A DNA stretch of 64,000 bases from a candidate division WS6 bacterium OLB21. Lineage in GTDB: Bacteria; Patescibacteriota; Dojkabacteria; B142; OLB20. The DNA is taken from assembly GCA_001567305.1 (NCBI GenBank), contig JYPD01000011.1:1-64000 (forward strand). The letters run 5' to 3'. Shown one piece after another: positions 2,809 to 63,443 of the stretch. The translations under genes were made by a program, and so were the position numbers. The notes under the pieces are model-generated. The model saw nothing but the letters and a program-made list of their open reading frames with translations, searched no databases and was not told the origin of the DNA. Each line of letters opens with the position of its first letter. Position 1 is the first letter of the stretch.

Positions 2809-2887
2809 AATATTGATCAATAGAATCTATGAAATTCTCTATTAGATTGATTGAGAAGTAAATAGTTGTGATTACTATTTTGCATAG

Positions 2888-2964: not shown

Positions 2965-2970
2965 TGAAGA

Positions 2971-3057: not shown

Positions 3058-3062
3058 AAAAA

Positions 3063-3136
3063 TCGGGGTGACTAGACTCGAACTAGCGACCTCACGCACC
3101 CCATGCGTGCGTTCTAGCCAACTGAACTACACCCCG
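3063..3136 (-). tRNA. tRNA-Pro (GGG)
   Basis: Nearly the same body as the tRNA-Pro(CGG) gene 100 bp away. Acceptor CGGGGTG/CACCCCG, anticodon stem CACGC/GCGTG around loop ATGGGGT, giving anticodon GGG. Unlike its two neighbours it has no genomic CCA (TTT follows the discriminator A). Confidence 0.93.
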
Positions 3137-3216
3137 AAGTGCAGATATTATACACCTCAAGATAAACTTGAGAAACACTTGCCGTCTTTCGTCAGTCTGA
3201 TTATTATCTATATAAG

Positions 3217-7353: not shown

Positions 7354-7356
7354 AGG

Positions 7357-8019: not shown

Positions 8020-8617
8020 TTTCGATAAAACTATCATGGATAAGCAGAGATTGAAAATCAGTGAATGCAATAATTGAATCAATTGTAGAACTTACTTTAA
8101 ATAGATTAGCAAAAGATTCAGAATACTTCGGATTTCCCAGATGCGGAATAGGCAAGAAATCTACAAGCGATAATGCTTTTGTTGAAGGCATATCATCAGG
8201 GGCTTGATCAAAGAATCTTATAGGACTAATGTCTTTTGCTGCAAGGACTGATCCGGCGCTTGACCCAAAATATATTGTGCCATCGTTAACTCTACCTCTG
8301 CATTGTGAAAGAAAACCACTTTCGTTAGCTATATTTAACAAATCAAATGTGTTCCCACCAGCAACAAAAATTACATCTGCTTTGCATAATCTATCGTAGA
8401 GGAACGAGTCTTGAACTTCTTTTAGATCGATAATATCGAGATTATAACCTAATTTTTTCAGTGCGTTCTTATCGTTGATCATAAACCAAGGATCTGGATA
8501 TCTATCTGCCGCGTTGGGAATAAAAGCAACTCTTGTGTTTATTGGATTTAATTCAAAAATCTTCGTAAACTCCACAACCATATTTGCTGCGATAGAGCTT
8601 AGGAACAAGTTCTTCAT
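7973..8617 (-). CDS. Peptidase S51 (dipeptidase E-like) family protein
   Basis: A 214-aa protein with the glutamine-amidotransferase-like fold of family S51. It has FIPNAADRYPDP, then FVAGGNTFDLL, and the nucleophile Ser in IYFGSSAGSVLAA, and a late His in PIPHLG. The family hydrolyses Asp-X dipeptides or cyanophycin-derived peptides in the cytoplasm. A second homologue lies at 59248-59895. Its stop overlaps the convergent trmB, and its start overlaps the stop of the PH-like gene upstream. Confidence 0.85.
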   Translation of the reverse strand: MKNLFLSSIAANMVVEFTKIFELNPINTRVAFIPNAADRYPDPWFMINDKNALKKLGYNLDIIDLKEVQDSFLYDRLCKADVIFVAGGNTFDLLNIANESGFLSQCRGRVNDGTIYFGSSAGSVLAAKDISPIRFFDQAPDDMPSTKALSLVDFLPIPHLGNPKYSESFANLFKVSSTIDSIIAFTDFQSLLIHDSFIEIIEQDPLLNEPKDNK

Positions 8618-9074
8618 GATTCTTTTTTAATCTCAACTTTATTTCGGGTAACGCTTTGTAAGGTCTGGATTAACTCCTCGGGATTCTTGGTACCGATGAC
8701 ATAGACAGTATCATCTCGGAGTATTATTTTTACGGCTTTGTAGCCATCGACACTATATATCCATCCATTAGCTAGAGGTTTAATCCCCCAAGTATAAAAC
8801 AATGGCTCTTCGAAATTGGAGAACTCTTTTATTTCTGAAACATCAATATTTTTTTTTCAATATCCAGCCAAGTGTTATTGATATTTTTGTAACGATCAAC
8901 TTCGGTTCTCATGAATGAATAAAGCAGAAAGAAGAAGGACAAGAATAAGATAAGTCCAAAGCAAAGAATCGAGTATCCAAAAATATAACCTAGGTAAATT
9001 GATCCGACGATGCTACCTCCAATTAAGCCAATTAGGATCTTCCCAACTTGTGTTTCTTTGTAGAGAATATTCAT
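8614..9074 (-). CDS. Membrane protein with bacterial PH-like domain, frameshifted
   Basis: Two frames (9074-8829 and 8802-8614) join through an A9 run near 8859. The repaired protein is about 153 aa. Two membrane helices in residues 10-60 are followed by a conserved-looking domain with GIKPLANGWIYSVDGYKAV, then LRDDTVYVIGTKNPEELIQTL. This pattern (GW-Y--G--AV--L--G--Y-IGT--PEEL) is that of small membrane-anchored bacterial PH-like proteins. The continuity of the domain across the run supports one gene. Molecular function is unknown. Confidence 0.7.
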
Positions 9075-9158
9075 ATAGTTAATGATACATTCACTTATTA
9101 ACTACTGCAATTTTTCCAGCCTAGATGACCTAACTTCTATATTCCTTTACAATGAATT

Positions 9159-10666
9159 ATGAAACGAATGTGGTTAAGGAAAAATGTAATGTTCAACTTG
9201 CTAATGGCACAAGATCAGAATAGTTTGGTCAACTTCAGCCAGCTTGAACCGAGTTTAGATCGAATGTATGAAATTGGTATTCGCGCTCTATTTATTAATC
9301 CGTTTTTTGATACTGGAACAAGATTAAAAAAGACAGAGGTCGCTCATCGTTTTCCAAGAGGTGCTTTTAAGGGGAGTCCTTATGCCGTCTATGATCATAT
9401 GTCTATAGAAGATGATCTGCTCTATGAATCCGACGATGATTATATCGATCAATCCAGCGCATTTAAAGACTTTGTAATTAAGGCACACAGAAGAGGTATC
9501 AGGGTGGTTTTAGATTTTATAACAAATCATACTAGTCACGACTTTCCCCTGCAGAAATATTATCCAGAATGGTTTTTATATAAAGAAGATATTCTGTCTT
9601 TGGACTCGCCCTATCTTAGTTTTGCCGATGTAGGTAAAGGATTGCCTTGGGGCGATGCAAAGCACACAGTTATTCCATTTATCAACGGGGATTTTTATTG
9701 GAGCGATACAGCTCAGCTAAACTGGGAAAAGGATTTGCCCCCAGCTCCTAATGAGCCTCCAAACAATCCATCTCTAAGAGCAATGTTCGATTATTTCATT
9801 ACAGTCGCAAATTATTGGGTGGCGGAGTTTGGAGTTGATGGGTTTAGATGCGATCTTGCCGATAGAATCCCGCAAGAATTTTGGGTTGAATGCATATCTG
9901 CAGTAAAGAAGACAGCAGCTACTTATAAGCAGGGAGTTTATACGCTTGACGGTGATTCCATTTTTATTGCCGAGACAAGATCTCAGGATCGAGAAACCTT
10001 GCATGAAGCAGGATTTGATTTCGTTTACAGTAGTCTGGCTGAATCTCTTTTTGATAATCGTAAATTGAAAGATTATTTAGGCAGTATCTCGGGCGAGAAG
10101 TGGTTAAACTTCACTGACACATATGATTTTTATCCTGATTCAAGGCTGCCTGAATCGGTTTATGAGAATATTAGCGATAATGACCTATCCAGAAATAGTC
10201 CAGCATATTGGGCAATAGCAGCAACGCTTCCTGGGCTGGCTATGATGTATACGGGAATCGAAAAAAAAATCTTGGCAGTTTTTCTTGGAAGCAAAAGATA
10301 ATACCGACGCTGATCACTCAAATGCCATTGCCTATGAAAAGATTAACGAAATACGAGCCACGCAAAAAGCTCTGTGGGGTAGCGAGATGCAGACCTTGGA
10401 GTGTAATGGAGAAAAGAGTGATGCTATTATTGCCTACCTGCGCGGTGTTGGCAAAGAGAAGCTAATCATTATTGTTAACACAAGTAGAGAAGATGTTTCT
10501 GATGTTTTTGTAGATGTGACTGTAGCTTTAGAGAGCCATGAGCGTAATTATATATTAAAGGATTTGGTTACAGGATCAATTTTTCCTTAGAACTGGACCT
10601 ATGTTGCAAATTGATCTTAAGGCACAGTCCTATCATATATTTAAAGTAGAAGAACAATGGTGTTAA
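9159..10666 (+). CDS. GH13 alpha-amylase family enzyme, frameshifted in the C-terminus
   Basis: The catalytic (beta/alpha)8 barrel is intact in the first 370 residues: region I VVLDFITNHTS, region II FGVDGFRCDLADR with nucleophile Asp232, region III IFIAETRS with acid/base Glu272. No signal peptide, so cytoplasmic glycogen or maltodextrin processing is likely. The frame breaks at the A9 run near 10262, again near 10295, and in the T5 run near 10584. After repair the C-terminal beta domain continues (KALWGSEMQTLE, then MLQIDLKAQSYHIFKVE) to the stop at 10664-10666. No maltose transporter is nearby. Confidence 0.85.
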
Positions 10667-11173
10667 ACATTAAAAAGGTATTATTCGCAGGTAAATTTTT
10701 GCCATATATATATTTGTTCGCCTCGGCGTTAGGATTATTGATTTTGGCTTCAATTTATATTAATGGTTCTTCTCAACCAACTGAAATTACTGGAAATCGA
10801 GATGCAGATGGTCAAAGACTGAGCCTTGACCAGGAAAATAAAAAATCTTATATCAGAGACTGTCACTACATTTAAATTTTACGACTAATGGAGAACTAAC
10901 TGATGCCAAGCAACTTTAGTTAGTTTAGATGAACAAGTGGAATTGATTCTTGATCTAGGATCAAACAGCGAGGTAGATGGGTATTCTCTAGCTTTGCATC
11001 ACGGTAGTTGCCAAGACTTGAACGAACAAAAAATAAGTTTGGGGGAGTTAGATAATTCTGGAAAGAGTATCGAGATTACCACAGAAGTTAAAGACTTTAT
11101 TCAAGAGAGTAGGCCACTTGTGATCAAGAACTTAGATGGTGAAGTTCTCTTTTGCACCAATATAAAGCTATGA
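10657..11173 (+). CDS. Secreted protein with CHRD/SOD-like C-terminal part, frameshifted
   Basis: The ATG overlaps the end of the GH13 gene. An N-terminal membrane segment or signal (residues 14-35) is followed in another frame by LHLNFTTNGELTDAK, then VSLDEQVELILDLGSN and LALHHGSCQDLNEQKISLGEL. Two breaks lie at about 10850 and 10910. The H-x-G-x-C and late Cys pattern resembles small CHRD-like or Cu/Zn-SOD-like secreted beta proteins, but the match is weak. Its 3' end overlaps the next gene by 4 nt. Confidence 0.55.
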
Positions 11174-12171
11174 AGATTGCAATTTTCGAAGCAGAACAAG
11201 AGTATGTTTCGACATATGAATCTTCTTTCCCTGATCATGATCTAGTCTGTTTTAACGAGCCGCTTCGTGAACATAATCTGGAACTAGCAAGAGATGCAGA
11301 AATGCTATCTGTCTTTGTTGGCTCGATTCTATCTGCCGAGGTTGTGGCTGCTCTACCGAAACTAAGATTTATTGCAACAAGATCAACTGGATATAATCAT
11401 ATCGATCTTGACGCCTGCAGCAAAAACGGAGTAAAGGTCCTGAATGTCCCGTCTTACGGCGAGAAAACTGTTGCGGAGCATACTTTCGCGTTGCTTCTGG
11501 CAGTATCTCGGAATATTCACAGATCATATCTGCGAGTTCAATCCGGCAATTTTGCGGTTAAAGATCTGGTAGGATTCGAACTCGCAGACAAAACAATTGG
11601 TATTATTGGCACCGGCAGTATTGGTATAAATGTCATTAAAATTGCCAAAGGTTTCGATATGAGGGTCTTGGCTTATTCCAGAACGAAAAAGCCAGAACTA
11701 GAAAAATTGTATGCAGTGGAGTATTGTCAAAATATCGAGGAATTACTCGCAAGATCAGATGTAATCTCTTTACATGTTCCATATACAAAAGATACGCATC
11801 ATCTAATAGGTTCTCATAACAGCAGGTTTATAAAGAAGGGGGCAGTTATAATCAATACCTCTCGAGGAGAACTTATTGATACAGACGAACTTTATCAACT
11901 GCTGAAGAACCAAGTCATTAGCGGTGCCGGGCTTGATGTTATTGAAGGAGAAGAGCATATTTCCGAAGATTTTGAGCTAATCAGCAGTAATAAGAATCCG
12001 GAGTTAATAAGGCAAATATACCGTGATCGTGAAATTTTTAAGATGGACAATGTTGTTTACACTCCACATAGTGGTTTTAATAGCAAAGAGGCATTAGACA
12101 GGTTAATCAAGAATTCAATCAGTAATATGAAATTTGTAATTGCAGGAAATCTAAGTAATCTAGTAAATTGA
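11170..12171 (+). CDS. D-isomer-specific 2-hydroxyacid dehydrogenase (D-lactate dehydrogenase-like)
   Basis: 333 aa from the ATG at 11170, chosen over the upstream start because it gives the canonical N-terminus MKIAIFEAE. NAD-binding motif GIIGTGSIGINVIKIA is present. The catalytic triad is Arg232 (TSRGELID), Glu259 (LDVIEGEE) and His300 (TPHSGFNS). The length and the ATRSTGYNHID and VAEHTFALLLA motifs place it with bacterial D-lactate dehydrogenases, which reduce pyruvate to D-lactate. Together with pyk and gpmI in this window it supports fermentative glycolysis. Confidence 0.9.
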   Translation: MKIAIFEAEQEYVSTYESSFPDHDLVCFNEPLREHNLELARDAEMLSVFVGSILSAEVVAALPKLRFIATRSTGYNHIDLDACSKNGVKVLNVPSYGEKTVAEHTFALLLAVSRNIHRSYLRVQSGNFAVKDLVGFELADKTIGIIGTGSIGINVIKIAKGFDMRVLAYSRTKKPELEKLYAVEYCQNIEELLARSDVISLHVPYTKDTHHLIGSHNSRFIKKGAVIINTSRGELIDTDELYQLLKNQVISGAGLDVIEGEEHISEDFELISSNKNPELIRQIYRDREIFKMDNVVYTPHSGFNSKEALDRLIKNSISNMKFVIAGNLSNLVN

Positions 12172-12192
12172 TTAAGATATAACGAAATTTAC

Positions 12193-12554
12193 ATGCTTGG
12201 TGAACTGGAACAAAAATAATGAATGTAATCTGGGCTTCTAATTGTCCCTTAAAGCCTGCACAAGTTCAAAGCGCCTTGTGTTGCGATTTGGCATATACCA
12301 CTGTTATGACGGTTATGAAAAGACTTACCGATAAAGGTTTGTTAACAAGAGAAAAAAAAGGAAATACATATTATTACTTTGGTACAACCGCCAAAACAGA
12401 CTACGCAAAAAACCACTTAAGAAAACTTTTCGATTCTTTAGTAGATTCTTATGGAAATGTTGCAATATCAGAATTTGTCGGATCTTTGAAAGATAATCCT
12501 AAAGATATACAGAAGCTTGTTGACTATTTAAACAATCAAGATGATCAATCATAA
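12193..12554 (+). CDS. BlaI/MecI/CopY-family transcriptional repressor, frameshifted near the start
   Basis: The winged helix AYTTVMTVMKRLTDKGLL followed by REKKGNTYYY is diagnostic of the BlaI/MecI family. The open frame begins at ATG 12219, but the expected N-terminus (MLGELEQK-I-MNVIWAS) starts at ATG 12193 and is interrupted by a one-base loss in an A5 run at 12212-12216. It overlaps the M56 peptidase gene by 14 nt, the standard BlaI-BlaR1 arrangement. A matching operator is found 1.2 kb downstream in front of the DsbA-like gene. Confidence 0.9.
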
Positions 12555-13387
12555 ACGACTGGGCGACCTTCTCTTTTTTTGCGTTTCGTTTGTTGCGCTT
12601 GTACAGGTTGCGTTATTGGCGATGCTTTCTGATGTCGTAATTTCTTTTATTGAATCAAAAATAAGATTTTGTTATGCAATTATCAGTGGAGTTGTAAGGT
12701 TTGATCCAGCAGTATTCACAGTTGATTTCATGATTATGGTTACCTATCTCCTAATTTGGATAGCTTTATTACTAAAACTGGGTTCAAAGCTTTTGGCCGT
12801 TTCTTTTAAAAATCATAACTTCACACAGGTATATTAAAAGTCTTGTCGTAAAGACTAGACAAGATATAAGGTTGATCATTAATCGAAAAGATCTTGTATT
12901 CACCGCAGGATTCTTATCCCCTCAGGTGTTTGTAAGTTCAAACATCAGATCTAGATTAGAAGCTAATGAATACAAAGCTGTAATTGAGCATGAGTTTTTC
13001 CATGCCCGTAATTATCATCCACTAAAAAAATTACTTCTTGAATTGTTCTTGTTTAGTTTTCCCCGCTTTATTGCTAGTAGAATTATGAAATCATATGAGG
13101 AGTTAACCGAAATTGCAGCGGATGATTATGCCAGAAAACGAGGGGCAACAAATAAAGAAATCGCAAGTGCATTAGTAAAACTTTGGGAAATAGACGCACA
13201 TATGGGATATTATGCTGTTTCATTTTTGCAAACTCGTTCAAGAATTGGCACTATTACAGGTGCTAAAGAGAGTGTCTTTAAGTATTCATTTTTGTTCTTA
13301 CTAATTTCATCATTATTTTTATTCCTAATGATTACATTTATTAACGGTCAAGAGCTTTTGTTATCTTGTAAAATTGCGTATTATTAA
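12541..13387 (+). CDS. M56-family (BlaR1/MecR1-like) membrane metallopeptidase, frameshifted
   Basis: N-terminal frame 12541-12837 encodes membrane helices. The C-terminal frame (from about 12830, first ATG at 12872) carries the zinc motif HEFFHARNYHP (HExxH), the third-ligand region ELTEIAADDYA and a last membrane helix. The two join near 12820-12832, where RYIKSLVVKTRQDIRLI restores continuity. BlaR1-type peptidases cleave the partner repressor after sensing an external signal. No penicillin-binding sensor domain follows the last helix, so the signal differs from beta-lactam. Confidence 0.85.
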
Positions 13388-13412
13388 TCTGCACTCTTGA
13401 GCTTTTTTCTGC

Positions 13413-13446
13413 TTGACACTGTCAATTTAATCTACTACATTTGTAG
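13413..13446 (+). promoter_or_regulatory. Promoter with BlaI-type operator over the -10 of the DsbA-like gene
   Basis: TTGACA at 13413-13418, a 17-nt spacer, and TACATT at 13436-13441. The inverted repeat CTACA-TT-TGTAG (13435-13446) covers the -10 box. TACA-N2-TGTA is the core of BlaI/MecI operators, and a BlaI-family repressor gene lies 0.9 kb upstream. Repression by steric block of the -10 is the natural reading. Confidence 0.7.
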
Positions 13447-13473
13447 GAGTATATTAATTTAATTTAAATAAAT

Positions 13474-14301
13474 ATGTCTAATAAGCATAATAAAAAAGCA
13501 GACACAGGTTCTCCTGTGAATGTTTCAGAAGAATCTGTAGATATCGAACTTCAACAGTTTCTTATTCCCATTTCGATCATTATTAGTGGAGTTCTTATTG
13601 CAGCTTCGGTTTTCTTTAGTGTCAGAGGCTTGACTGGAGGAGTGGTCACTAACACTAATACAAATCCTTCACCGACAGCAGCTGTTCTAGGTGAACCAGA
13701 CGAGAATGGTTTTACCCCTGCGGTAGTTAACATCGCCGATGCACCCTTGTTGGGTAATAGAGATTCGGCAAAGGTTGCAATCGTTGAATTTAGCGATTTT
13801 GAATGTCCATTCTGTCAAAGATTTCATAACGAAACTTTTGATCAAATAATTCAAGAGTATGTCGATACAGGAAAAGCGATCTTTGTTTACAGAGACTTTC
13901 CATTAAGCTTTCATAATCCAGAAGCTACTAATGCATCTTTGGCAGCAAGATGTGTATTCGAACAAGCAGGCAATAACGGCTTCTTCAAATTTACTTCAGA
14001 ATACTATGCTAGAACTCTAAGTAATAAAGCAGGTCTGCCAGAAGGAACAACTCTTGCAAGTCTTGCTGGCTCTATTGAAGGTGTAAATGTGGATAGTTTT
14101 AATTCTTGCTATAGCGAAAAGAGATACGAAGGTAAAATTGCAACAGATATTGCAGACGGCTCAGCAGCAGGAATAACAGGAACCCCTGGTTTTATTATAG
14201 GAGTCCTAGACTCTAATGGTAATGTAGAAGGACTTAATGTCCCCGGAGCACAGCCATTTGATGTCTTCAAACAAGTTATTGATGAGCAATTAGCTAGATA
14301 G
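13474..14301 (+). CDS. Membrane-anchored DsbA-like thiol oxidoreductase
   Basis: 275 aa. A cytoplasmic N-terminus and one membrane anchor (about residues 29-50) are followed by a Thr/Asn/Pro-rich linker and a thioredoxin-fold domain of the DsbA/Thioredoxin_4 type. The active site is FECPFCQRFH (Cys111, Cys114), and the cis-Pro loop is ITGTPGF. It catalyses disulfide formation or isomerisation outside the membrane, and several secreted proteins in this window carry paired cysteines. It has its own promoter with a BlaI-type operator and a strong terminator. Confidence 0.92.
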   Translation: MSNKHNKKADTGSPVNVSEESVDIELQQFLIPISIIISGVLIAASVFFSVRGLTGGVVTNTNTNPSPTAAVLGEPDENGFTPAVVNIADAPLLGNRDSAKVAIVEFSDFECPFCQRFHNETFDQIIQEYVDTGKAIFVYRDFPLSFHNPEATNASLAARCVFEQAGNNGFFKFTSEYYARTLSNKAGLPEGTTLASLAGSIEGVNVDSFNSCYSEKRYEGKIATDIADGSAAGITGTPGFIIGVLDSNGNVEGLNVPGAQPFDVFKQVIDEQLAR

Positions 14302-19103: not shown

Positions 19104-19245
19104 TGTATTACGAGCAGGGAACATAAAAGTTCGAGAAGGTCTCTGCTCGGAGAAATAATGTAGTCTTACGGTATTCGGACTTTATCAACCGTTGCGGCAC
19201 AGTGAGGGAATCACACCCTACTTCCCCGTAAGCTGATCTCAATAT
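19104..19245 (-). ncRNA. Cobalamin (B12) riboswitch
   Basis: On the minus strand the conserved core is present in order: GGGGAAGTAGGGTG-TG-ATTCCC, then CTG-GCCGCAACGGT, then AAGTCCGAATACC. This corresponds to the GGGAA / GGTG-ATTCC / CCGCAACGGT / CCGAAxACC blocks of cobalamin riboswitches. A 7-bp stem, CTTACGG (19226-19232) with CCGTAAG (19165-19171), closes the core. A second stem, CGAGCAG with CTGCTCG (about 19111-19150), follows and could be the expression platform next to the TTG start at 19098. Confidence 0.85.
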
Positions 19246-32025: not shown

Positions 32026-35000
32026 ATGTATAAAACCCGCCTAACGGGAGGCAAAGTGCAAGTTAGTCCTCCAACAGTGTCTAAAGCTGTACTCTATGTA
32101 GCAGCTTTTCTTGTTGTGATATCACTAGTTGCAGTTGTTGGATTGCTTCTTTCTAGGTCAATAAATGCTGCTTCTCCGTCGCTTGAAAAATTGATGAACT
32201 ACAATGTTGCTGGTTCAATGAACGATTTTGGAGACGCTCTTGTTGATGCAGGCGATAACACATACGCTGCAGTTTCCTTCTCTGAAACAGAATATAGACT
32301 TGAAAAAAGAGAAACAGATGGAACACTTGTTGGAGCAGATTCTGTTGTTACATCAGAAGGAGAGGCTAGTGTACCATTTGCCTTTCTAACTGCAACTGGT
32401 TCTAATCAGGGTACTGCAAGTAGCGGATCGTTCTCTGTAGATGCCTTAAACGGAGAAAAAACTTTAATGATTGTCGCAGTTGCTTACAGACAAAATAACG
32501 ATCGCGTAACTTCGGTAACATATAATTCTGCCTCATTAACCAAAGCTTGTTCGACCAGAAACGCTGACTATTCAATAGAAACTTACTACTTGGTAAATCC
32601 AGCCTCCGGCAGCAATACTCTGGCTTACACCATGAATGCTTCGACTCAAGACATCTATATTAATGCTTCTGTTTACGAAGGTGTAAATCAGGCAGATCCG
32701 ATTAGAACTTGGGCTTGTAACAATGGCTACAGTACTGCTCCTTCTGTTACAGTAACTTCAGAAGAAGGTGACTATGTTGTTGCTAGTGTTAGTCAATATT
32801 CCGGTGGTAATTCACATACCAATACAACATCTGGTTCTGTAACTCAGATTTCTAATGCACTTGGTGGTCCAAATGTCCTTGTCTCACAACTTAGAGTCCC
32901 AGGTGCGGCTACCTCTACAACAGCAACATGGACTTCCTCAGCAAATTGGCCTTGGGCTGCCTCAGCTATTGCTATCAAAACTGACGAGGGCATAGGTGGT
33001 GGGCCAGAAGCATTGCAGGTTGAACTTTCAAACACAACTACCGATTCAGATACATACACATCTGGAATCTATAATCATCAACATACTGTATCTGGTTTTA
33101 ACCGGTTAATGCTTGTTCAGGTTTCGTATAGAGAGTATTCAGGATCACCAACAAATGTTGATTATATTGAAACAACATATACAGATGGTAACTTTAACAC
33201 CGACTATCGAAATCTTACAAACCTATGTAGTGACAGGTCTGGACTTTATGTCAATGAGTTGTGGTACATTGCAGATCCACTTGTTGGCGACAACGAGATA
33301 AGTGTTAATTTGGTTGATAGTGTGGAAGATCTGGCAATAATTGTAACAACATACACAAGTGTTAATACATTAGATCCATTCTCAGATTACGAATGCGATT
33401 CCTACACAACTGGAAACCCAGAATCAACGATAGTAGGTGTAGAGAATGGTTACGCTTACGGAGGAGTTGCAACAAGTGCAAATAACACAGTCGATTTTGG
33501 ATCAGGAATGGTTGCAATAACGAGTTCATCAACCAGTGAATTACAATCACATGCCCATTCTAAATTATCATTACCTTCAGTTACATTTGATTGGGATATA
33601 CAAGGTAACAGTTCTGCAGAAGATTTATACTTAACTAGTACTTATGGTGATTCAATTACTAGGCACGATATTACAAATGGTGACTATCTTGACTCAACAT
33701 CTCTGACTGCAACAAATTTTGACTCAATAAATTCAGGTCATGGCTTTGCAATTGATCCGACAAATAATACTATATACGGTGTTTTCAATACTGACAGCGG
33801 TTCTAATATGTTATCAACTGTTGATCTCGCAAATGGTGAAATCAATCAAATAGGAGACCTAGGCGAAGATTTTAGAAATATTACATTTGATTCAAATGGA
33901 CAATTATACGGCATTACAAACGAGTATACATCATATCCAGAAGAGCTATATGCAATAGATAAATCAAATGCAAATATTTCATTTCTAATGTCGCTATCGT
34001 TATCATCTAGTCAAAGGTCTGTAATTGCATATAATCCAAACGACGATAGAATATACAGATTTGCTGGAGATAACTTAGATCCAGAACTAGATAGAATTGA
34101 TGCTTCAGTTCCAGAAGTTGCGTCAAGTTCAACACCTTATACTTATGACTATTTTGACACATTCGAAACTGCAACCTATTGGGGAGGCGCTTCTGATTTT
34201 CTTGTTATCTCAACCGGATATCTATTTTACTCAGATAATATAGGCTTTATGAGTTATGTGGGATCAATAGCTAATTCTCAAGGAATGGTTGTATATTCTG
34301 ATAGTACTGTTTATTCGGTGTCTGCAACAGCAACAATTAAACCAGTAGAATCAGGCAGCATTAATGTTCACACATCTGGTGTAGATTCAGATGACTATGG
34401 TCCTGTTACGAGCATTGGCTCATTTTCTGTCTCGCCTTCGGGTCAACAAAGAATGCTTCTGATACTTGCAAGTTATGACACTAATGATCCATCTGTAGAA
34501 TATGTAGATAATGCTTATTACCAAGACGAAGACTCATACATTAACTATCCTGCTACCAACATTTGTAAATCGGATTTCAATAATTACGGCTTTGAATTAT
34601 GGTATGTAAACGATTATCCAACCAATAATATTGGAGGTACTGTATATGCTGAATTTACTGGTTCAGGAGTTGACAGTGCAATCTTAAGTTATATTGGACT
34701 AGATAATGTTGATCTTTCGGATCCAATCGGAAACTTTGATTGTGATGGTTTCTTTGGGAATCTTCCAGGAGCAACCCTGACAGGTTCTTCAGAGGAGCTT
34801 GTCGTTGCGGGTATTACTTCTGCATACGATAATGGTTATAATAGTTTTACTCCTCATTCAGCTACTTACAACCATAATACACAGAATTCAGGAAATATTA
34901 TCGGAGCCTATGCAACAGTTGAAGGTGATCCAGATTATTACTGGGAAATGTACGATGACTACGATCTGGCCTTCGGAGCAGTGGCAATTAAGAACATTGC

Positions 35001-38000
35001 GGCAAATTCAATTCCTGCAGAAACGCTAACAGGTGCATATCGAATTAAAGATGGAAAGGGTGAATTTAAAGTGGATAGTCAAGGCAATTTTATTATTGCT
35101 GCAAATAACTCAAATAACCCTACCAACCAAGATTTTATAGTAACAAAGCACGATAGTGATGCTCAGCATGTATGGACTTACATCCATGATTGGACAACTC
35201 CACCAGCAGTAAATTCTATTGCAGATATAGAAATTGATGCTTCGGACAATATAGTATTAGCGGCGAATATGGATTATGGATCAGTACAGAGTGGAGAAAT
35301 CATTGTCTTAGACACAGATGGAGTAGAGGTTGATTGGTATGACTTTTACTTTGGTCCATTCCTTGGATCCAAGTTATATTCCACATACTTGGATGGCACA
35401 AACTTATATGCTTGTGGATCTGAAAGAGTAGATAACTCTTCAAGATACAATGATATATATGTAGTTAAATACGATGTGAATGGTGATAAGTTATGGCAGT
35501 ATTGGTTTAATACCACACCTTACGATGTAGAAGAGGGTTGCAGAAGCATGGTTCTTGATGGTAATGATCTTTATATTGTCGGACTATCAGCTAGCGGCAC
35601 ATCTTCTGCAGATGAACTTAATCGAACAATCATCCGTTTGAATGCCACAACCGGAGATGAAGTTTACGCGCAAACATTTGGTACTGAAATCGATATTTCT
35701 TCACTTACCCAAGACGAGATCGACAGAATCATCACCAAGGATTCTATGTTGAAGGTTGGCTCTGAATTGTTTGCAGTAATATTTAATCCTGCAACAGAAA
35801 GATCTGCAATTTCAAGGATAACTGCGTCAACGGGTTCGGTAGCACAAACAGTTGATTATTATGAATTCAATGAGTATATTCAAAATCCTTTCATTACAGA
35901 TATCGTAACTTACGAAAACCACGATGGTGACACATACTTTGCAGTGTCAGGATATAACTACAGCGGAGGTGAAAGAGGATTCATTGGACTTGCTGATGCA
36001 TCAGATCTGAGTTACTTCCCTGCAACTGAAAAGTTGGTTGGAAATTCAAATCCTAATGTTAGAGTTACCTCGTTATTGGTTAACGATAACACTCTATACG
36101 CTAGTGGATATGATTCCGATGATGCTCAAGGAGCAAATGCATATCTTGGTAGATTCGGTTGGAGCGTGTTAAATGTTACATCTTCAAACGAAGTTTTCTC
36201 CAAGAATAGCGGGTTAAATCTTAATGACCACATGTATATGGGTGGCAACGAATTTACAGCAGAGGTAAGAAACGGTAGCAGTCAGGTTATCGCTGAAGTA
36301 CCGTTTGAATTTGCAGAGGATGATATCGCATCTATCACCATAGCTGGAGAAACTGATGCACCAACATATAAAGCATGGTATGACGGTTATTCCCCTGCAA
36401 GTGGAAGCACTTGGAGTTTAAATATTCCAAGAGATGTCGCTCATAACTCGATAAGACTTTGCCCAGATGTAGATGCACTTGTAGAAATTGAAGAAGGATG
36501 TACTGGAGAAATAATCTTACCAGACGATGATCCTTCAGTAACAAACAATACGACACACTGGTTAGTATCAGGTCTTGATGAAGGAACAGCATATGGAGCA
36601 GAAAGCTTCACCGGTTCTGTTGAAGTTGATATCACTGAGATTCCATTCTACAACTATAATGCAGGTGGAGCGGATACAGCTCCAGTAGTTGAAAGTTTGA
36701 ATGGTCATGTGATCACTGCTGCAGGAACTGACAGTGGATCAATCAATCTTTCAAAGGTGCGTATTTTTGATAATCTAACAATCTGGGAAGAGTCGTTTAG
36801 TCACCCTGGTGGATTATTAACATTCGATATCGTTGATATAGATTTAGATGCTGCAGGTAACATTTATGTAGGCGCGAAAATGTATGATAACAGCGAAGCA
36901 AACTACAATTACTTCCTGTCGAAGTTTGACGGAGAAGGAAGAATTCTGTGGCATAAGGATTACGATGGTGGTAGCACAGTCCATGACTCATTCGACTTCT
37001 TGCAAGCACTAGTTGTTGATGCTGCTGGAAATTCGTACATATCAGGAATCATGGAAGTACCTTTCCCAACTTCTCCTTTCTGGACTCAGGTTTCTGGAAC
37101 AATTAAGGTAAATACAAACGGTGTAGAGCAGTGGAGACATATCGAGCTTGATCATGGACATAGTTACACTAATGATTTAACTCTAGATGATTCTGGTAAT
37201 CTGTATGTCTGCGGCGGACTAGAAAACTTTGATGCTTACAGGCGAGATTTTTATGTCAGCAAGTTTAACAGCTCTACAGGAGAAAGAATGTGGGTATATC
37301 GAAGACAAACAGAAAACCCAGGCACACCCGCTGTAGAAAATTGTGATGCAGTTGTTTACGGAAGTACAAATAATATTATTCTAGCTTCTGGTACTACTAA
37401 AGCTGCATTAAATAATGGTTCAATCGATAGATGGGTTGCTGGTATTAACGCAACCACAGGTGTAATTATCTGGGGTAAGCAAGAAACATATAATGATGTA
37501 CCAAGTTTTGCTCCAATCTATACACGAGCTGCAGTTTACGATTCAGTAAATAATGCCTTCGTAATAGCTGGAAGAACCAGATTCCAGACAGCAGACTCAG
37601 GAGATGCCTTCTTGAACTCTTATAATGCTGCTAACGGAGATGTTATCTTTGCAAAAACAGTGGATCAACTTACCAGTGCAGATCAATTTAATGATCTTGT
37701 CTGGTATCAGGACTTCTTGGGTGATGTGCATTATGTTGCTGTCGGAACATATTTCGATTCAACAACATGGAGAGCTATGGTTAGAAGTTACACAGCAACC
37801 GGATCCTTAGAGTTTGAAAAGCTTTATGATGCAGGGTACTTCACAGCTGCAAGCTCAGTGGCTGTAGACTCTAGAGGAATCATATATACAGGTTTCTTAG
37901 AGAATGACGGCACAGGAGATGATGTTAGAGTTAACAAATATGCTTATCTAGTTAACTCGTTGCCTCCAGGATTATCACTGGTGGTTGAAGCCTTGCCGGG

Positions 38001-39531
38001 AGTTATTGTTGATCTAACCTCAGCTGGTTACGGAGGAGCATTTACTGCAACTCTTAGAAACGGCAACAATCTTCCAATTGCTCAATTTGAAATGGGCTTA
38101 AGATCAGATGTAGATTGGTCAACAGTCACAGGAGATAGACTTGGACTTAAAGCATTTGCTCACTTCCCTGGAGGATTTGCAAATACACCTGGAGCAAACG
38201 ACACTTCGTTCAGCCTGCTTCTTCCAAGGCCGGCAAATGCTGATCAGGTAGTTATCTGCCCAGGTGCAGATGATCTTGAAGATATTGAAATCGGTTGTAG
38301 CGGTCAAGTCTTATACTCTCTCGCAGATCCTAATGTAACCTTAACTACTTTCAATGGACAAGAGTTCTTCAAAGTAGCAGGACTTACAGGTACAGGTGGA
38401 CTTCCAATCAACGATGCCTCTGCAGTTAGAGACACAATGACCAGAGAGCAAGTTGGAGTAGCAAGTGATCATAATCTAGAATTCGGAACAACATTTGGAA
38501 TAGATTCCAGTGGAGACACGATAACACTAGATTTCGCCAATCAGTTTGATTTCACAGCGATTACAGTAGATGATCTTGACCTGATAGTAAATGGAGTAGA
38601 TAAAGATCTATGTACCGGACCACTACCATGTTCTGCAGGAGCCGGAGTATGGGGTGTGTCGCTAGATGATGTAAACAATGTCTTGGTATTTACTGCACCA
38701 ACAGATGCAACGACAGGAGAAGTTGCAATTAATGACTCGGTACAAGTCTTGATAGGACTTGCTGCCAGTCATCAGGCTAGTGGATCTAACCAAGTTGTGA
38801 ATCCAACAATAGTTGGCTCTTACGAAGTCAGACTAGAAATCACAAATGGTGCAACCGAGGTTGGCGAACTTGAAATTCCAATAATAGATGATGACACTGT
38901 AAACATTACAGGTTTTATAGATACCTTCATCTCATTTGACTTGGATACAGCGCACATAGATAATGACTGCGATGCGTTCGGAGGAGCTAGTCCATGTAAC
39001 AGCCATGCAGCAACCTCAGATGGAGCAGGTTATGTAGTTGATCTTGGAGAACTTAACCTCTCAACAGTTAATGTCAGTGGATCAAGTACACTGCACCAGG
39101 ATGGTTTAACAGGTATAATCAATTATATCTGGCTAGATCTTTCAACCAATGCTGTAGGAGGAGCAGTAGTAAGAGTATCTTCCTTAAATGATGCACTGCT
39201 TGGACCAAACGGATCGACAATTGATTCAGTCGGAGCAGGTGAGGTTCAGATAACAGCGGGCTCAGGACTATATGGTCTACAGAATCGATTCCTAGATAAC
39301 AAGAGTGCAGTTAGCGGAACAGTAGTAATTGACGACGATTGTAATGCTAACGGAGGAAACGACTTCTTCTGTAGTGTTGGAGGAGCTCTTGGTCGAACAG
39401 TGTTTACAACAAATAACACAATGATTGACCAGGCAAGAGTTCAGTTGAGAGTAGGAGCATCACCAGATGGACTATCTGCAAGTGGTACTTACTCAGACGA
39501 GTTAACATTTATCGCAACGGCTACCTTCTAG
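32026..39531 (+). CDS. Giant 2501-aa multidomain surface protein with WxL-like C-terminus
   Basis: Signal anchor at residues 20-43. Three related Cys-containing beta modules of about 200 aa lie near residues 110-320, 330-530 and 775-995 (each with a SF-V or F-RLMLV start, an N-x-C-x-S/T region and an acidic Cys loop). A propeller-like stretch lies at 540-765. Two longer propeller-like blocks at about 1000-1385 and 1540-1975 carry repeats such as LDGNDLYIVG and VDAAGNSYISG. Each is followed by a module with a C-P-x2-D-x2-E-x2-EIGC-type pair. The last 360 residues match the upstream 419-aa protein and end YSDELTFIATATF. It is intact over 7.5 kb. Likely an adhesin or host-contact fibre. Confidence 0.85.
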   Translation: MYKTRLTGGKVQVSPPTVSKAVLYVAAFLVVISLVAVVGLLLSRSINAASPSLEKLMNYNVAGSMNDFGDALVDAGDNTYAAVSFSETEYRLEKRETDGTLVGADSVVTSEGEASVPFAFLTATGSNQGTASSGSFSVDALNGEKTLMIVAVAYRQNNDRVTSVTYNSASLTKACSTRNADYSIETYYLVNPASGSNTLAYTMNASTQDIYINASVYEGVNQADPIRTWACNNGYSTAPSVTVTSEEGDYVVASVSQYSGGNSHTNTTSGSVTQISNALGGPNVLVSQLRVPGAATSTTATWTSSANWPWAASAIAIKTDEGIGGGPEALQVELSNTTTDSDTYTSGIYNHQHTVSGFNRLMLVQVSYREYSGSPTNVDYIETTYTDGNFNTDYRNLTNLCSDRSGLYVNELWYIADPLVGDNEISVNLVDSVEDLAIIVTTYTSVNTLDPFSDYECDSYTTGNPESTIVGVENGYAYGGVATSANNTVDFGSGMVAITSSSTSELQSHAHSKLSLPSVTFDWDIQGNSSAEDLYLTSTYGDSITRHDITNGDYLDSTSLTATNFDSINSGHGFAIDPTNNTIYGVFNTDSGSNMLSTVDLANGEINQIGDLGEDFRNITFDSNGQLYGITNEYTSYPEELYAIDKSNANISFLMSLSLSSSQRSVIAYNPNDDRIYRFAGDNLDPELDRIDASVPEVASSSTPYTYDYFDTFETATYWGGASDFLVISTGYLFYSDNIGFMSYVGSIANSQGMVVYSDSTVYSVSATATIKPVESGSINVHTSGVDSDDYGPVTSIGSFSVSPSGQQRMLLILASYDTNDPSVEYVDNAYYQDEDSYINYPATNICKSDFNNYGFELWYVNDYPTNNIGGTVYAEFTGSGVDSAILSYIGLDNVDLSDPIGNFDCDGFFGNLPGATLTGSSEELVVAGITSAYDNGYNSFTPHSATYNHNTQNSGNIIGAYATVEGDPDYYWEMYDDYDLAFGAVAIKNIAANSIPAETLTGAYRIKDGKGEFKVDSQGNFIIAANNSNNPTNQDFIVTKHDSDAQHVWTYIHDWTTPPAVNSIADIEIDASDNIVLAANMDYGSVQSGEIIVLDTDGVEVDWYDFYFGPFLGSKLYSTYLDGTNLYACGSERVDNSSRYNDIYVVKYDVNGDKLWQYWFNTTPYDVEEGCRSMVLDGNDLYIVGLSASGTSSADELNRTIIRLNATTGDEVYAQTFGTEIDISSLTQDEIDRIITKDSMLKVGSELFAVIFNPATERSAISRITASTGSVAQTVDYYEFNEYIQNPFITDIVTYENHDGDTYFAVSGYNYSGGERGFIGLADASDLSYFPATEKLVGNSNPNVRVTSLLVNDNTLYASGYDSDDAQGANAYLGRFGWSVLNVTSSNEVFSKNSGLNLNDHMYMGGNEFTAEVRNGSSQVIAEVPFEFAEDDIASITIAGETDAPTYKAWYDGYSPASGSTWSLNIPRDVAHNSIRLCPDVDALVEIEEGCTGEIILPDDDPSVTNNTTHWLVSGLDEGTAYGAESFTGSVEVDITEIPFYNYNAGGADTAPVVESLNGHVITAAGTDSGSINLSKVRIFDNLTIWEESFSHPGGLLTFDIVDIDLDAAGNIYVGAKMYDNSEANYNYFLSKFDGEGRILWHKDYDGGSTVHDSFDFLQALVVDAAGNSYISGIMEVPFPTSPFWTQVSGTIKVNTNGVEQWRHIELDHGHSYTNDLTLDDSGNLYVCGGLENFDAYRRDFYVSKFNSSTGERMWVYRRQTENPGTPAVENCDAVVYGSTNNIILASGTTKAALNNGSIDRWVAGINATTGVIIWGKQETYNDVPSFAPIYTRAAVYDSVNNAFVIAGRTRFQTADSGDAFLNSYNAANGDVIFAKTVDQLTSADQFNDLVWYQDFLGDVHYVAVGTYFDSTTWRAMVRSYTATGSLEFEKLYDAGYFTAASSVAVDSRGIIYTGFLENDGTGDDVRVNKYAYLVNSLPPGLSLVVEALPGVIVDLTSAGYGGAFTATLRNGNNLPIAQFEMGLRSDVDWSTVTGDRLGLKAFAHFPGGFANTPGANDTSFSLLLPRPANADQVVICPGADDLEDIEIGCSGQVLYSLADPNVTLTTFNGQEFFKVAGLTGTGGLPINDASAVRDTMTREQVGVASDHNLEFGTTFGIDSSGDTITLDFANQFDFTAITVDDLDLIVNGVDKDLCTGPLPCSAGAGVWGVSLDDVNNVLVFTAPTDATTGEVAINDSVQVLIGLAASHQASGSNQVVNPTIVGSYEVRLEITNGATEVGELEIPIIDDDTVNITGFIDTFISFDLDTAHIDNDCDAFGGASPCNSHAATSDGAGYVVDLGELNLSTVNVSGSSTLHQDGLTGIINYIWLDLSTNAVGGAVVRVSSLNDALLGPNGSTIDSVGAGEVQITAGSGLYGLQNRFLDNKSAVSGTVVIDDDCNANGGNDFFCSVGGALGRTVFTTNNTMIDQARVQLRVGASPDGLSASGTYSDELTFIATATF

Positions 39532-57747: not shown

Positions 57748-58651
57748 TTAGTAGTTACCTATCAATCCATTATAAGCGAGATCAATTGTATTTTGTTGTG
57801 ACATGATATCCCTAAACTCGTCTGCCATGGCTAATAGTGTATCTATATTTGTTGGTAAACTCAAACCCTTCTCTCTGGCACCTTTTGTGTATTTGTACCA
57901 CATCTCAGAGATGGCGTTATCGTTGGCTTTTTCTTTGATATATTATTTTGTTGGTCATATCGTAGTTGATCACAGCAACTCCAGTTCTTCTCACCATTAA
58001 TAATACATTCCCAGGATTTGGATCTCCATGTAGAACATGTAAGTTCTGACCATTGATTATTGATGCTTTTCTAGCTAGATTGATGGCTTGAACAGCTGAT
58101 AAAGCATAAGCTGCTGACGCGATTCCTATAACTTCTGGGGTGTTTGTTCTCTTAAGTATTGCTTCTATGCTTCGTCCGTAATGAGTCGATAATGTACCAA
58201 GGTAAGGTCTATCTTCTATTTCAACTTCCACAAATCGATGCATTTCTGAAGCCTCAATGTGGGAAAAGCCAGATGCTACTAGATGCATATGTTGTGCTGG
58301 TACGCTTTTTCTTATAGTATCATTAAAGTCCGGATTTAGTGCTATTTTTAGCCACCTAGGGGTTATATAGTTAGTATCATAGATATCTTTAATGGTATTA
58401 ACAAGGATACCGTACGGTCGAATATACTCAAGTTTAATTGGGTCAAATCTATTGCGATTTAATACCGCCCAAGTAGTGTCGCACGATTCTCCTTCTAAAG
58501 TGACGCGAAAAGGAAAGGGCAGTATCTGGTTTCCTGCCTGTTCAATAATTTGTTGATTAATTATATTAAAATGATCTGGTCCCACATCTGATTCTAATCT
58601 ATTATAATTATATAATAGATCGACAAAAAAATCTGTATAGTATAGATTCAC
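57748..58651 (-). CDS. APH-like kinase-fold protein, frameshifted
   Basis: The first frame (58651 to about 57920) has LHVLHGDPNPGNVLLM, the Brenner motif of aminoglycoside-phosphotransferase-like kinases, and VAVINYDMT as the DFG-equivalent region (Asp present). It then breaks near 57935. Frame repair gives KEKANDNAISEMWYKYTKG and a C-terminal helical part ending at 57748, about 300 aa. No clear glycine-rich loop is visible in the N-lobe, so substrate and activity are uncertain. Confidence 0.68.
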
Positions 58652-58687: not shown

Positions 58688-59245
58688 CTAAGCTTCTATA
58701 AGCTTAACTACAGCTTCAAGACATTGAGGTAATGTATTCCAACCGGCAGAGCTGTTTAGGTGACCACCATTCTTGACAATTATCAGCTCGCCATTTAGTT
58801 CTTTAGCAAGGAATTCTGCATTATCTAGCGGTACGAGCGGGTCGTTATCACCATGAATTATTGAGAACTTTTGACATTTAGTTAGGATTGCTTGGAAGTC
58901 AAAGTCACGGTCAAGAAAACTGAGTAATCTTTTGTTTTCAATTCTTTCTGAAGGTCCGGATACTAGAATGGCTCCTGCAATATTTTGTGCCTTGCTCATT
59001 TCGAGATATCTAAGGATCGCAGGGACTCCAAGTGAATGACCAATAAGATAAATTTCGTCCTGTGGGTTATTCTCGACATGTCTTGAAATTTCGTTCGTCC
59101 ATTCGTCACACTTTGGATAATCTGGAGTGGGCATAGAAAGGGAGCATGCGTAGATATCTAGCTTGTCTAGTTCGCCCATCAGCCAAGGTCTCCAGCCTCC
59201 GTTAGGCCTGCCTTCAAAACCGTGGATGATGAATACTTTTGTCAT
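58688..59245 (-). CDS. RBBP9/YdeN-type alpha/beta hydrolase
   Basis: 185 aa with the serine-hydrolase triad: nucleophile in LIGHSLGVPA, Asp in IIHGDNDPLVP and His in KNGGHLNSSAG. The N-terminus VFIIHGFEGRPNGGWRPWL and short length are typical of the RBBP9/YdeN family. An intracellular esterase-like enzyme with unknown substrate. The ATG is 2 nt from the stop of the S51 gene, so they are cotranscribed. Confidence 0.88.
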   Translation of the reverse strand: MTKVFIIHGFEGRPNGGWRPWLMGELDKLDIYACSLSMPTPDYPKCDEWTNEISRHVENNPQDEIYLIGHSLGVPAILRYLEMSKAQNIAGAILVSGPSERIENKRLLSFLDRDFDFQAILTKCQKFSIIHGDNDPLVPLDNAEFLAKELNGELIIVKNGGHLNSSAGWNTLPQCLEAVVKLIEA

Positions 59246-60043: not shown

Positions 60044-60518
60044 ATGAACTATCTTCAGCAAATACTACCCAAAACGGTGTCGAACAAATATTCCGGTCCA
60101 CTAATCCCCCTGTATGTTTTTTATCTTATAACTAGTATTTCTATTGCTAGGAGCCTGATCCACATATTCTCACAAGATGGAGGAGCTGGGAGTATTGCTA
60201 CTATCCCCATCAATGATTATGTGAACGGGGGGAAAAGAGGCGGTAGTATTCATGTTTGCTATGTGGGGTTTAGGACAGCTTTTAATGGGAATATTTTATG
60301 CGATTGTTTCCATAAAATATAAAAGTTTACTGCCTCTAATGTATATCTTCATATTCTTAGAGTATTTCGGTGGTTTTCTGATAGGACAATACAAAGGATT
60401 GGCAACAGAAGGTACGCCTCCTGGAGCAATTGGTGCTCAAATTCTTATGCCTCTAAGTATTATGATGCTCATCTGGATTTTAAATGGCTCTCACGAATCT
60501 AGAAGAATTCGCAATTAA
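60044..60518 (+). CDS. Four-helix membrane protein next to heliorhodopsin, frameshifted
   Basis: First frame: YVFYLITSISIARSLIHIFSQDGGAGSIATIP. It breaks in the G6 run near 60227, where one G fewer gives NGGKEAVVFMFAMWGLGQLL, and continues to the end at 60518. Repaired length is about 157 aa with four membrane helices. The SIARSLIH and DGGAGSIA segments look highly conserved, but I cannot name the family. It precedes heliorhodopsin by 100 bp in the same orientation. Confidence 0.65.
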
Positions 60519-60569
60519 TTGCTTGCTTCACCGACAGATCTTGCCTAGATAGAAAATTGGTGCATTTTC

Positions 60570-60599
60570 TTGAGATTAGTTCTAATATAAAAGTATTAA
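60570..60599 (+). promoter_or_regulatory. Possible promoter of heliorhodopsin
   Basis: TTGAGA (60570-60575), 18-nt spacer, TATTAA (60594-60599), 20 bp before the ATG. Weak but well placed; it would allow expression independent of the upstream gene. Confidence 0.35.
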
Positions 60600-60618
60600 T
60601 AATTTATATTTTTTCAAT

Positions 60619-61392
60619 ATGAATACAGAAAATAGCTACAAAAAGCTACGGAAGTGGAATGCAATTATGGCTGTCCTCCACTTTGTCCAAGGAATTGCAA
60701 TGCTTGCAATTAGCAGAGATTTTAGCATCCCTCTAACAACTACTTACTTAGACTTCAACTTGCAAGCTAACACGATATTGCCTGTGACAAATGAGGCAAT
60801 GCAACTGAATCTGGGCCAGTTTATTTCTGTATTTCTATTCTTATCAGCTTTTTTTCACTTCCTACTTATCTTACCTGGAATATATGAATGGTATGTTAAG
60901 AATCTGAAGAATAAGATTAACTATCTAAGGTGGATTGAATACGCATTTAGCTCTTCGGTTATGATTGTAGCTATCGCAATTCTTTGCGGAATGTTTGATC
61001 TTCCGAGTTTGATTCTCATCTTTGGGCTAAACGCCATGATGAACCTGTTTGGTTTGATGATGGAGCTACATAACCAAACAACGAAAAAGACTAACTGGAC
61101 TGCGTTCATCTTCGGTACAATAGCAGGAATCCTACCTTGGATTGTAATAGCCATGTACTTCTTTGGAGCGGTGTCGTCTGTAGGTACCAACATCCCAAGC
61201 TTTGTATATGCAATTCTTGTATCAATCTTTCTGTTCTTCAATTGTTTTGCAATCAATATGTTTTTGCAGTACAAACAAGTCGGTCCGTGGAAGGATTATC
61301 TTTTTGGAGAAAGGGTTTATATTCTGTTAAGTCTGATAGCAAAATCAGCATTGGCTTGGCAAATATTCTCAGGTACTTTGAGGCCGATGTAA
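60619..61392 (+). CDS. Heliorhodopsin
   Basis: 257 aa with seven membrane helices. Family features occur at the expected positions: LHFVQGIAML in helix A, His80 in FFHFLLI, counterion Glu107 in LRWIEYAFSSS, GLNAMMNLFGLMMELHNQ in helix D, FNCFAINMFLQYK in helix F, and the retinal Schiff-base Lys242 in LSLIAKSALAWQIFSGTL. Numbering nearly equals that of heliorhodopsin 48C12 (Glu107, Lys241). It is a light-responsive non-pumping rhodopsin with an inverted orientation (N-terminus inside). No retinal biosynthesis gene is in this window, so retinal must come from elsewhere. Confidence 0.95.
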   Translation: MNTENSYKKLRKWNAIMAVLHFVQGIAMLAISRDFSIPLTTTYLDFNLQANTILPVTNEAMQLNLGQFISVFLFLSAFFHFLLILPGIYEWYVKNLKNKINYLRWIEYAFSSSVMIVAIAILCGMFDLPSLILIFGLNAMMNLFGLMMELHNQTTKKTNWTAFIFGTIAGILPWIVIAMYFFGAVSSVGTNIPSFVYAILVSIFLFFNCFAINMFLQYKQVGPWKDYLFGERVYILLSLIAKSALAWQIFSGTLRPM

Positions 61393-61424
61393 GAGTTGTC
61401 AGAAATATTTGACCCTGCACTTCA

Positions 61425-62051
61425 ATGGGTAAGCAATTGGAATTATACGAGAAATACTTTGTTAAGAACAACTTCGAAAGGTTGGGATTATTCAAGTTGC
61501 TAAGAGATGAATTCGACATTCGATCAGCATTATACCTTGGAAGTTTTCTACATATCACTCCTGCATTTGTATTTCCCAAGACAGTCTTTGTTGATAGCGA
61601 TAGACGAGTACAAAAGTTCTATGCAGATCCTGAGATAAGAAAAATGGTTAAAAGCAAAAAGCAATATAAATCAGAAGCTGACTTTATAGGTATCCAGCAA
61701 AATTACGAAAAAACCAACTTACTAGATGAGGATTCTTTTGACCTACTAATTTCTCAATATGCAGGTTTTGTCTCACAGGCTGGCAAACGCTATCTAAAGA
61801 ACAATGGCATTTTAATCGTAAATAACTCTCATGGTGATGCAAGCATGGCTTTTCTTGATCAGGATTATCAATTAGTTGGAGTAATCAACCATTCTAACGG
61901 TAACTGGAGATACAGTTCCAAAAACTTAGGTGACTACTTTGTTCCAAAGAAGCCACCACATCCATCAGTTGAGCAAATTAAATCAGTGATGAGGGGGGTA
62001 GTATATACCAAATCTGCAGGTATTTATGTTTTCAAGCTTAGCAAGGATTAG
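61425..62051 (+). CDS. Class I methyltransferase-like protein downstream of heliorhodopsin
   Basis: 208 aa. A Rossmann-like region SALYLGSFLHITPAFVFPKTVFVDSDRR takes the place of SAM motif I and its acidic strand end, followed by LLDEDSFDLLISQYAGFV and KRYLKNNGILIVNNSHGDA. The glycine-rich loop is poor, so SAM binding is not certain. Begins 32 nt after the heliorhodopsin stop and is probably on the same transcript. Confidence 0.6.
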   Translation: MGKQLELYEKYFVKNNFERLGLFKLLRDEFDIRSALYLGSFLHITPAFVFPKTVFVDSDRRVQKFYADPEIRKMVKSKKQYKSEADFIGIQQNYEKTNLLDEDSFDLLISQYAGFVSQAGKRYLKNNGILIVNNSHGDASMAFLDQDYQLVGVINHSNGNWRYSSKNLGDYFVPKKPPHPSVEQIKSVMRGVVYTKSAGIYVFKLSKD

Positions 62052-62146
62052 GATTTGCAGTAACTCTCAGGAATAGAAATCCAATCTTCTATTCCTTTGA
62101 ACCTATAAAGTACGCAATTTGATCCAGATGAGCTAAGTGATAAAAC

Positions 62147-62231
62147 CGGAGAGGACAGGATTCGAACCTGCGGTTCCTTGCGGAACACAGTCTTTCCAGG
62201 ACTGCCATTTAAACCACTCATGCACCTCTCC
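62147..62231 (-). tRNA. tRNA-Ser (GGA)
   Basis: Class II tRNA. Acceptor GGAGAGG/CCTCTCC, anticodon stem CAGTC/GACTG around loop CTGGAAA (anticodon GGA), long variable arm TTCCGCAAGGAA, T arm AGGTTCGAATCCT, discriminator G. No genomic CCA. Confidence 0.94.
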
Positions 62232-62368
62232 AAATTGTAGGTAATTATAGCTTATTCGTTCTCGCTTTAGAAATAGTTAATAAAGACCTGCAATAATTTC
62301 TTTAGAAAACAGCTCTTTAGTTTTTAAGGGAACTATTCTAAAAATCAGGCATATATTATTCATTTTTG

Positions 62369-63443
62369 ATGGACAATAAAAAAGAAAGCCCTGCTTGCAG
62401 GCGGCGGTTTGCTTGGAGGTCTACTAGTTGCAGACAAATCGGGCGCAATCGTAAAAGGTATCGCTATCGGAATAGTCTGCATTCTGCTAGCAATGCTTCT
62501 TACTTTTAATAGTGTGGGTGGAGTTCAAGAAGTATCCAACGATGTGGCAGCAATTCCGTTGGTCAGTGTTAATGATCTTGATGGTCAACGAGGAATGGTT
62601 AAGGCTTTTGGCACTATCAGCACAGAATCGTCATTGTCATTTGAACTAGTTAAATGTGCAGAGGTAGTATGCCTTTCTCCAGAGCTATTGTTGTCAGAAG
62701 AAAATCTTGCTTACTATAAAACTACTTTGCAAAGATTCGAAGTGATTCGCAAAGTTGAAGAGCAAGAAAGTAGTGGCAGTAGAGTTAGCGAAAAAGTGAC
62801 ATACAAAAATGAGTGGGTCACAAAATCAGAAAAAGAGCAGTGGGCGGATTTGAAAATTGGAAGTGTTAAGATCAACCCGGTCAAAGCAAGAACGCTTATA
62901 GATACAGAAAGAGAAGAACTTACTGGTGTTTATATCGAGGGTTTAACTCAGTTAGAGACTTACGGCAGACAACCCGCAGAAGACGAACCAGCCTTTGGAA
63001 CTACTCGCGCTGTGGTTACTTATTTGCCTTTAGACGATCGTGAATATACTGTTGTTGGCGAACTCAGAAGTGATGGCTTTAGTGCCGGAGACCCGTTCAT
63101 TTTCACTGATCTATCTGACAGCCAGCTCGTCTCTCGATTAGGAGGAGAAGAGTCTACAAGCCGCTGGCTAATGCGATTTGTTGCATTTGTTCTGTTAACA
63201 TTTGGCTTTACAAGCATATTAAGTCCGATACTTGTATTTACTGACATGATTCCTCTTGCTGGTAAAGCTGCACGCAGCGCAGCAACACTTGTCAGCGCAA
63301 TTGCAGCAGGTATTATTGTGTTGGCTACAGTATTCTTGCTTAATTACTGGTGGGCAATAGCATTTATAATCATTTTGGGTTTATTTGGATTTGCATTTAT
63401 TGCATCTAGAAAGACCAATACTAATACAGAGCAGAAAAGTTAA
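62369..63443 (+). CDS. TMEM43-family membrane protein, frameshifted near the start
   Basis: The main frame (62409-63443) lacks a proper start. ATG 62369 followed by an A6 run gives MDNKK-KKALLAGGGLLGGLL after a one-base correction. One membrane helix near residue 30, a large extracytoplasmic beta-rich region with two Cys, and three C-terminal helices beginning SRWLMRFVAFVLLTFGFTSILSPI, then MIPLAGKAARSAATLV. The helix cluster with RFVAF and IP-GK matches bacterial TMEM43 (DUF1625) proteins. Function in bacteria unknown. Confidence 0.8.

Follow-up and report, generated by a model that had tools for sequence, protein, structure and literature searches.

Heliorhodopsins (HeR) have already been reported from Dojkabacteria (PMC9166423), and the accessible part of that report on Dojkabacteria and CPR HeRs contains no description of the gene neighbours or of the carotenoid cluster presented here. 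The operon groups known for other HeRs include glutamine synthetase, photolyase, TerC, ABC transporter, DUF2177 and DUF2238 genes, among others, with partners that vary by lineage (PMC11109279); lineage-differing partners also appear in the abstracts of two further papers (PMC9529153, PMC9769723), and the partners proposed for other HeRs are lineage-specific (PMC8612252). The structural reference is TaHeR, from a Thermoplasmatales archaeon (PDB 6IS6 and 7U55; variant 7CLJ). As for the chromophore, no blh is present in the rhodopsin-bearing Saccharibacteria, which are believed to take up retinal from outside, and rapid binding of added retinal is reported for heliorhodopsin (PMC9296517).

The window analysed here, i.e., the first 64,000 nucleotides of contig JYPD01000011.1, belongs to a 1.05-Mb MAG of the Dojkabacteria (CPR/Patescibacteria). 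Three genes lie on the same strand in 60044-62051, and the short distances described in a sequence-only reading of this DNA are confirmed, with gaps around HeR of 100 bp and 32 bp. The features are as follows:

60044..60518, + strand: gene of a small membrane protein, with a frame break at 60227-60236 (frame and codon analysis, homologues)
60227..60236, + strand: GGGGGGAAAA tract, site of the coding-frame change (sequence, frame analysis)
60619..61392, + strand: heliorhodopsin (HeR), 257 aa (PF18761, NF038020 and 6IS6 matches)
61425..62051, + strand: coding-like ORF starting 32 bp past HeR, for a 208-aa protein whose family is sporadic and uncharacterised
62146..62232, - strand: tRNA-Ser(GGA), the downstream bound of the three same-strand genes (ARAGORN, Rfam)

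The reading that we favour with considerable confidence is that of a canonical, single-copy Dojkabacteria HeR, probably gained laterally, which has no conserved partner and is flanked by two sporadic neighbours. The HeR itself is ordinary, and the interpretation placed on the locus is not supported.

The heliorhodopsin and its history

The predicted protein is a canonical heliorhodopsin by every test run. It matches PF18761 of Pfam at E=3.1e-100 (334.9 bits, against a curated cut-off of 26.7) and NF038020 of NCBIfam at E=4.2e-105 (350.7 bits, against a curated cut-off of 100), and its best PDB match is the solved archaeal TaHeR, 6IS6, which aligns end to end with HeR residues 2-257 (E=3.1e-79); the check for seven helices consisted of this alignment and a crude hydropathy scan. 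H21 (in TM1), H80, E107 and K242 line up with the two histidines, the counterion Glu and the retinal lysine of 6IS6, and they are kept in 84-88 of the 91 aligned HeRs, while the S238xxxK242 retinal motif of helix 7 and E107 of helix 3 are conserved in 88 of the 91. The differences from TaHeR are five additional residues around positions 182-191 and the genomic setting.

The placing of Glu107, His80 and the Schiff-base Lys at canonical positions in the earlier reading is thus upheld, the lysine being K242, the predicted Schiff-base residue, with E107 as the predicted counterion. The retinal binding which that reading expected from these residues is likely. By homology, the ligand would be all-trans retinal held on K242, with E107 as the counterion, and the behaviour of the family suggests a slow, non-pumping photocycle, through which the HeR may act as a light sensor or as a modulator of another protein. 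No histidine kinase of the kind reported for other HeRs was found within 10 kb of the gene, among the larger ORFs of the contig at ~49.6-73 kb.

No second HeR was found in the genome, and no type-1 rhodopsin (PF01036) exceeded the cut-off in 96 genomes, where the two weak matches were the HeRs themselves. The HeR is present in 30 of 96 relatives. In a tree of 91 HeRs, with weak support at many of its inner branches and long rows in some cases, at least three changes of class label are required by the well-supported branches, and the HeRs of the window's own family are scattered: that of G002 groups with that of G005, that of G003 falls in the main clade of the class, and that of G004 stands with other families. 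The HeR of the window is placed elsewhere again, its nearest relatives by path being the order-mate G007, a Paceibacterota sequence and G091; its starred grouping with a Chloroflexota row, which is very long, is not to be trusted. Given these separate positions within one family, lateral gain is likely, and gain at different sites, which would account for the differing neighbours, is the simplest reading of the sequences; the present gene was probably acquired within the class. The findings indicate that, in the class of the window, HeR behaves like a gene that moves laterally and keeps no fixed partner.

The two neighbouring genes

In the upstream gene, one frame spans 60044-60322 and the C-terminal part, which ends at 60518, lies in another; the codon statistics change frame at GGGGGGAAAA, a tract that includes a G6 run (60227-60232), with coding-like usage on both sides. 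The 157-aa membrane protein that had been described as one ORF was therefore a translation across the break. The two homologues that are intact, one of 147 aa and one of 156 aa (loci L113 and L114; genomes G034 and G001), align without gaps at the tract once one base is ignored, and they support, together with the codon statistics, a single gene with one extra base at GGGGGGAAAA.

This break may reflect the quality of the assembly. Along ~12.6 kb of contig 26 that is syntenic with the family-mate G001, the genes for CrtI, CrtB, a rhomboid protein and two further products are frame-broken in the MAG and whole in G001, with a CruF-like gene as the reverse case. So many broken genes point to frequent indel errors, and the break in the membrane gene is, on this ground, most likely a sequencing or assembly error. 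On the other hand, the frame change might be genuine, with the gene in decay or the poly-G tract switchable, as the G tract is present in the assembled sequence and the gene is sporadic; against this stand the five genes that are broken here and whole in G001, an AcrB-like gene that is also split just after the window, and the coding-like usage on both sides of the tract, and we regard a genuine break as unlikely.

Similar features occur elsewhere on the contig. The AcrB/D/F-type transporter gene, split into two ORFs shortly past the window at L178 (G000:C11:63000-76000) 1478-3929 (+), adjoins the genes of a LexA-like repressor and a Y-family DNA polymerase. Two genes near HeR also look frame-broken. 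In a TMEM43-like gene at 62369-63443, an A6 tract separates the likely ATG (62369) from the remaining frame, with a shift of one base, and for a gene at 57917-58651 (-) the C-terminal portion may extend into 57748-57903. In this CPR genome of 1.05 Mb, the window further contains a 2501-aa ORF at 32026-39531 (+) and an AdoCbl-II cobalamin riboswitch at 19163-19245 (-) that scores higher than the Rfam gathering threshold.

The membrane protein had also been called conserved-looking, a description that fails in the context of HeR, given that its intact relatives come from G001 and G034, in neither of which a HeR was detected. A profile search of 379 genomes of the phylum adds only a contig-end fragment in G186 and one marginal match, and the gene and HeR co-occur in one of three genomes (Fisher p=1, i.e., no link). 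As in the described operon groups (PMC11109279), a small membrane protein here adjoins HeR, but the present one differs from them in having neither a Pfam match above the cut-off nor profile similarity to a DUF2177-like protein (by hhalign), and a role as a DUF2177-type partner was rejected. An alpha/beta hydrolase gene (58688-59245) lies two genes from HeR, on the opposite strand, which also departs from those groups. The upstream gene would, then, represent an unrelated sporadic family with a break that is most likely an error of sequencing or assembly. Separately, small membrane proteins named by eye as DUF2177-like are immediate neighbours of HeR in two genomes from a single family of the window's class (L127, 6007-6417; L128, 8003-8413); partners of this kind are on record for other phyla.

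The downstream 208-aa protein had been termed methyltransferase-like, a label left without statistical support. Searches of Pfam, NCBIfam and the PDB with phmmer and hmmsearch, hhalign and AlphaFold2 were all inconclusive: there is no Pfam, NCBIfam or PDB match and no GxGxG motif, the relatives of the protein match methyltransferase Pfam models weakly (E=0.05-0.085), hhalign to one methyltransferase-like protein gave 0.9%, and AlphaFold2 without an alignment gave a pLDDT of 38. A methyltransferase nature is only hinted at, by the weak matches of the relatives. The SHGDA motif is invariant in the family, whose members are sporadic: no relative was found in 378 other genomes of the phylum or in a scan of viral contigs, plasmids of Tritonibacter, Maritalea and Tenericutes bacterium MO-XQ carry relatives with 34-36% identity, and one at 49% is found in a Lokiarchaeia genome, on a contig other than that which bears the HeR of that genome.

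Conservation of the gene order

The gene-neighbourhood comparison proposed in the earlier reading covered 109 HeR loci, whose sources include Chloroflexota, Actinomycetota, Thermoplasmatota and Patescibacteria; a few of the loci are duplicates, and 29 have short flanks. A tblastn search (E<=0.1) with both neighbours found nothing in the flanks of these loci, and the same search with six other genes from around the neighbours was equally negative. When wider flanks were added for the class of the window and all the flanking ORFs were clustered, near neighbours proved to be common mainly to close relatives, and no cluster of at least three loci takes in the locus of the window. The neighbours thus belong to no recurrent HeR-partner family, as neither has a Pfam match above the cut-off or stands beside any other HeR in the loci examined.

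The suggestion of a meaningful three-gene locus does not survive this comparison, since neither neighbour is conserved next to HeR in related genomes. A conserved unit in which the membrane partner, the heliorhodopsin and the enzyme function together would fit the shared strand and the short spacing, but neither neighbour recurs beside HeR in the loci examined, both are also found without HeR, and the membrane gene accompanies HeR in only one of its three genomes (Fisher p=1); we treat this unit as refuted for the present sample, its probability being negligible. The three genes most likely stand together by chance, and their arrangement offers no clue to function; an attractive lead to the partners of heliorhodopsin, for which support is lacking, is thereby removed.

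A narrower association might nevertheless involve the downstream gene, given that the 32-bp gap makes a lineage-specific pair possible, in which the light-induced changes of HeR would modulate the soluble 208-aa protein. On the + strand, no terminator-like or promoter-like site lies between the two genes, which may be co-transcribed, and partners that differ across lineages are on record (PMC11109279; also in the abstracts of PMC9529153 and PMC9769723), with glutamine synthetase, photolyase and the ABC transporter as precedents in other bacteria. The family of the 208-aa protein, in contrast, stands beside no other HeR: the plasmid and Lokiarchaeia relatives sit with other genes, only one of 50 other HeR-bearing genomes has a relative, with its HeR on another contig, and the 378 other genomes of the phylum that lack the protein include many with HeR. 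Conservation of the gene beside HeR is contradicted by these absences, and the 208-aa protein is a weak candidate for a partner, a light-regulated pair being very unlikely. We prefer to see the downstream gene as sporadic, one that may share a transcript with HeR and would have no general link to it.

Retinal supply and the carotenoid cluster

The statement that the window contains no carotenoid cleavage gene agrees with the search of the rest of the genome for blh/brp that was also called for. PF15461 found none in the MAG and none over the cut-off in 79 other genomes, a result of undemonstrated sensitivity, as the control genomes were also without a match, so that the absence of blh/brp is not proven. 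Phytoene synthase, on the other hand, was found in the MAG, within the following feature:

L161 (G000:C26:26001-39850) 7320-13600, - strand: carotenoid gene cluster, contig 26 of the MAG

The cluster comprises a DUF1295-alpha/beta hydrolase fusion, a CrtI-like gene and CrtB (both frame-broken), a two-domain lycopene cyclase (PF18916) and a Caroten_synth/CruF-like gene (PF04240). Its gene order is common to G001 (L171), together with infB, adk and trmD, a synteny by which the cluster belongs to the lineage of the MAG and is not an accident of binning. No description of carotenoid genes from Dojkabacteria turned up in the literature searched, a negative that does not establish novelty.

Given this cluster, it is plausible that a carotenoid precursor of retinal is made in the lineage of the MAG. 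The cluster is not tied to HeR, since it is present in G001, where HeR is missing, and since phytoene synthase and HeR occur together no more often than expected by chance (HeR in four of the nine phytoene synthase-bearing genomes among 96; Fisher p=0.45, no detectable link). The import of retinal by Saccharibacteria and its quick uptake by heliorhodopsin (PMC9296517) make scavenging an equally good source, and the retinal would be either scavenged or derived from the carotenoid of the crtI-crtB-lycopene cyclase cluster on the other contig. That the bacterium makes its own carotenoid and, by means of an unrecognised cleavage enzyme, its own retinal for HeR seems to us improbable; if true, it would set this organism apart from the rhodopsin-bearing Saccharibacteria, which are thought to take retinal from their hosts. 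The presence of the carotenoid cluster alongside HeR in one MAG makes retinal supply testable in a reduced genome.

Finally, carotenoid-related genes also occur near HeR in other genomes. In the class-mate G012, where phytoene synthase was not found, HeR faces, in convergent orientation, a CruF-like gene and a CrtI-like gene that is intact (L125, 5307-8183), and a CrtI-PSY pair lies near HeR in the archaeal locus L062.
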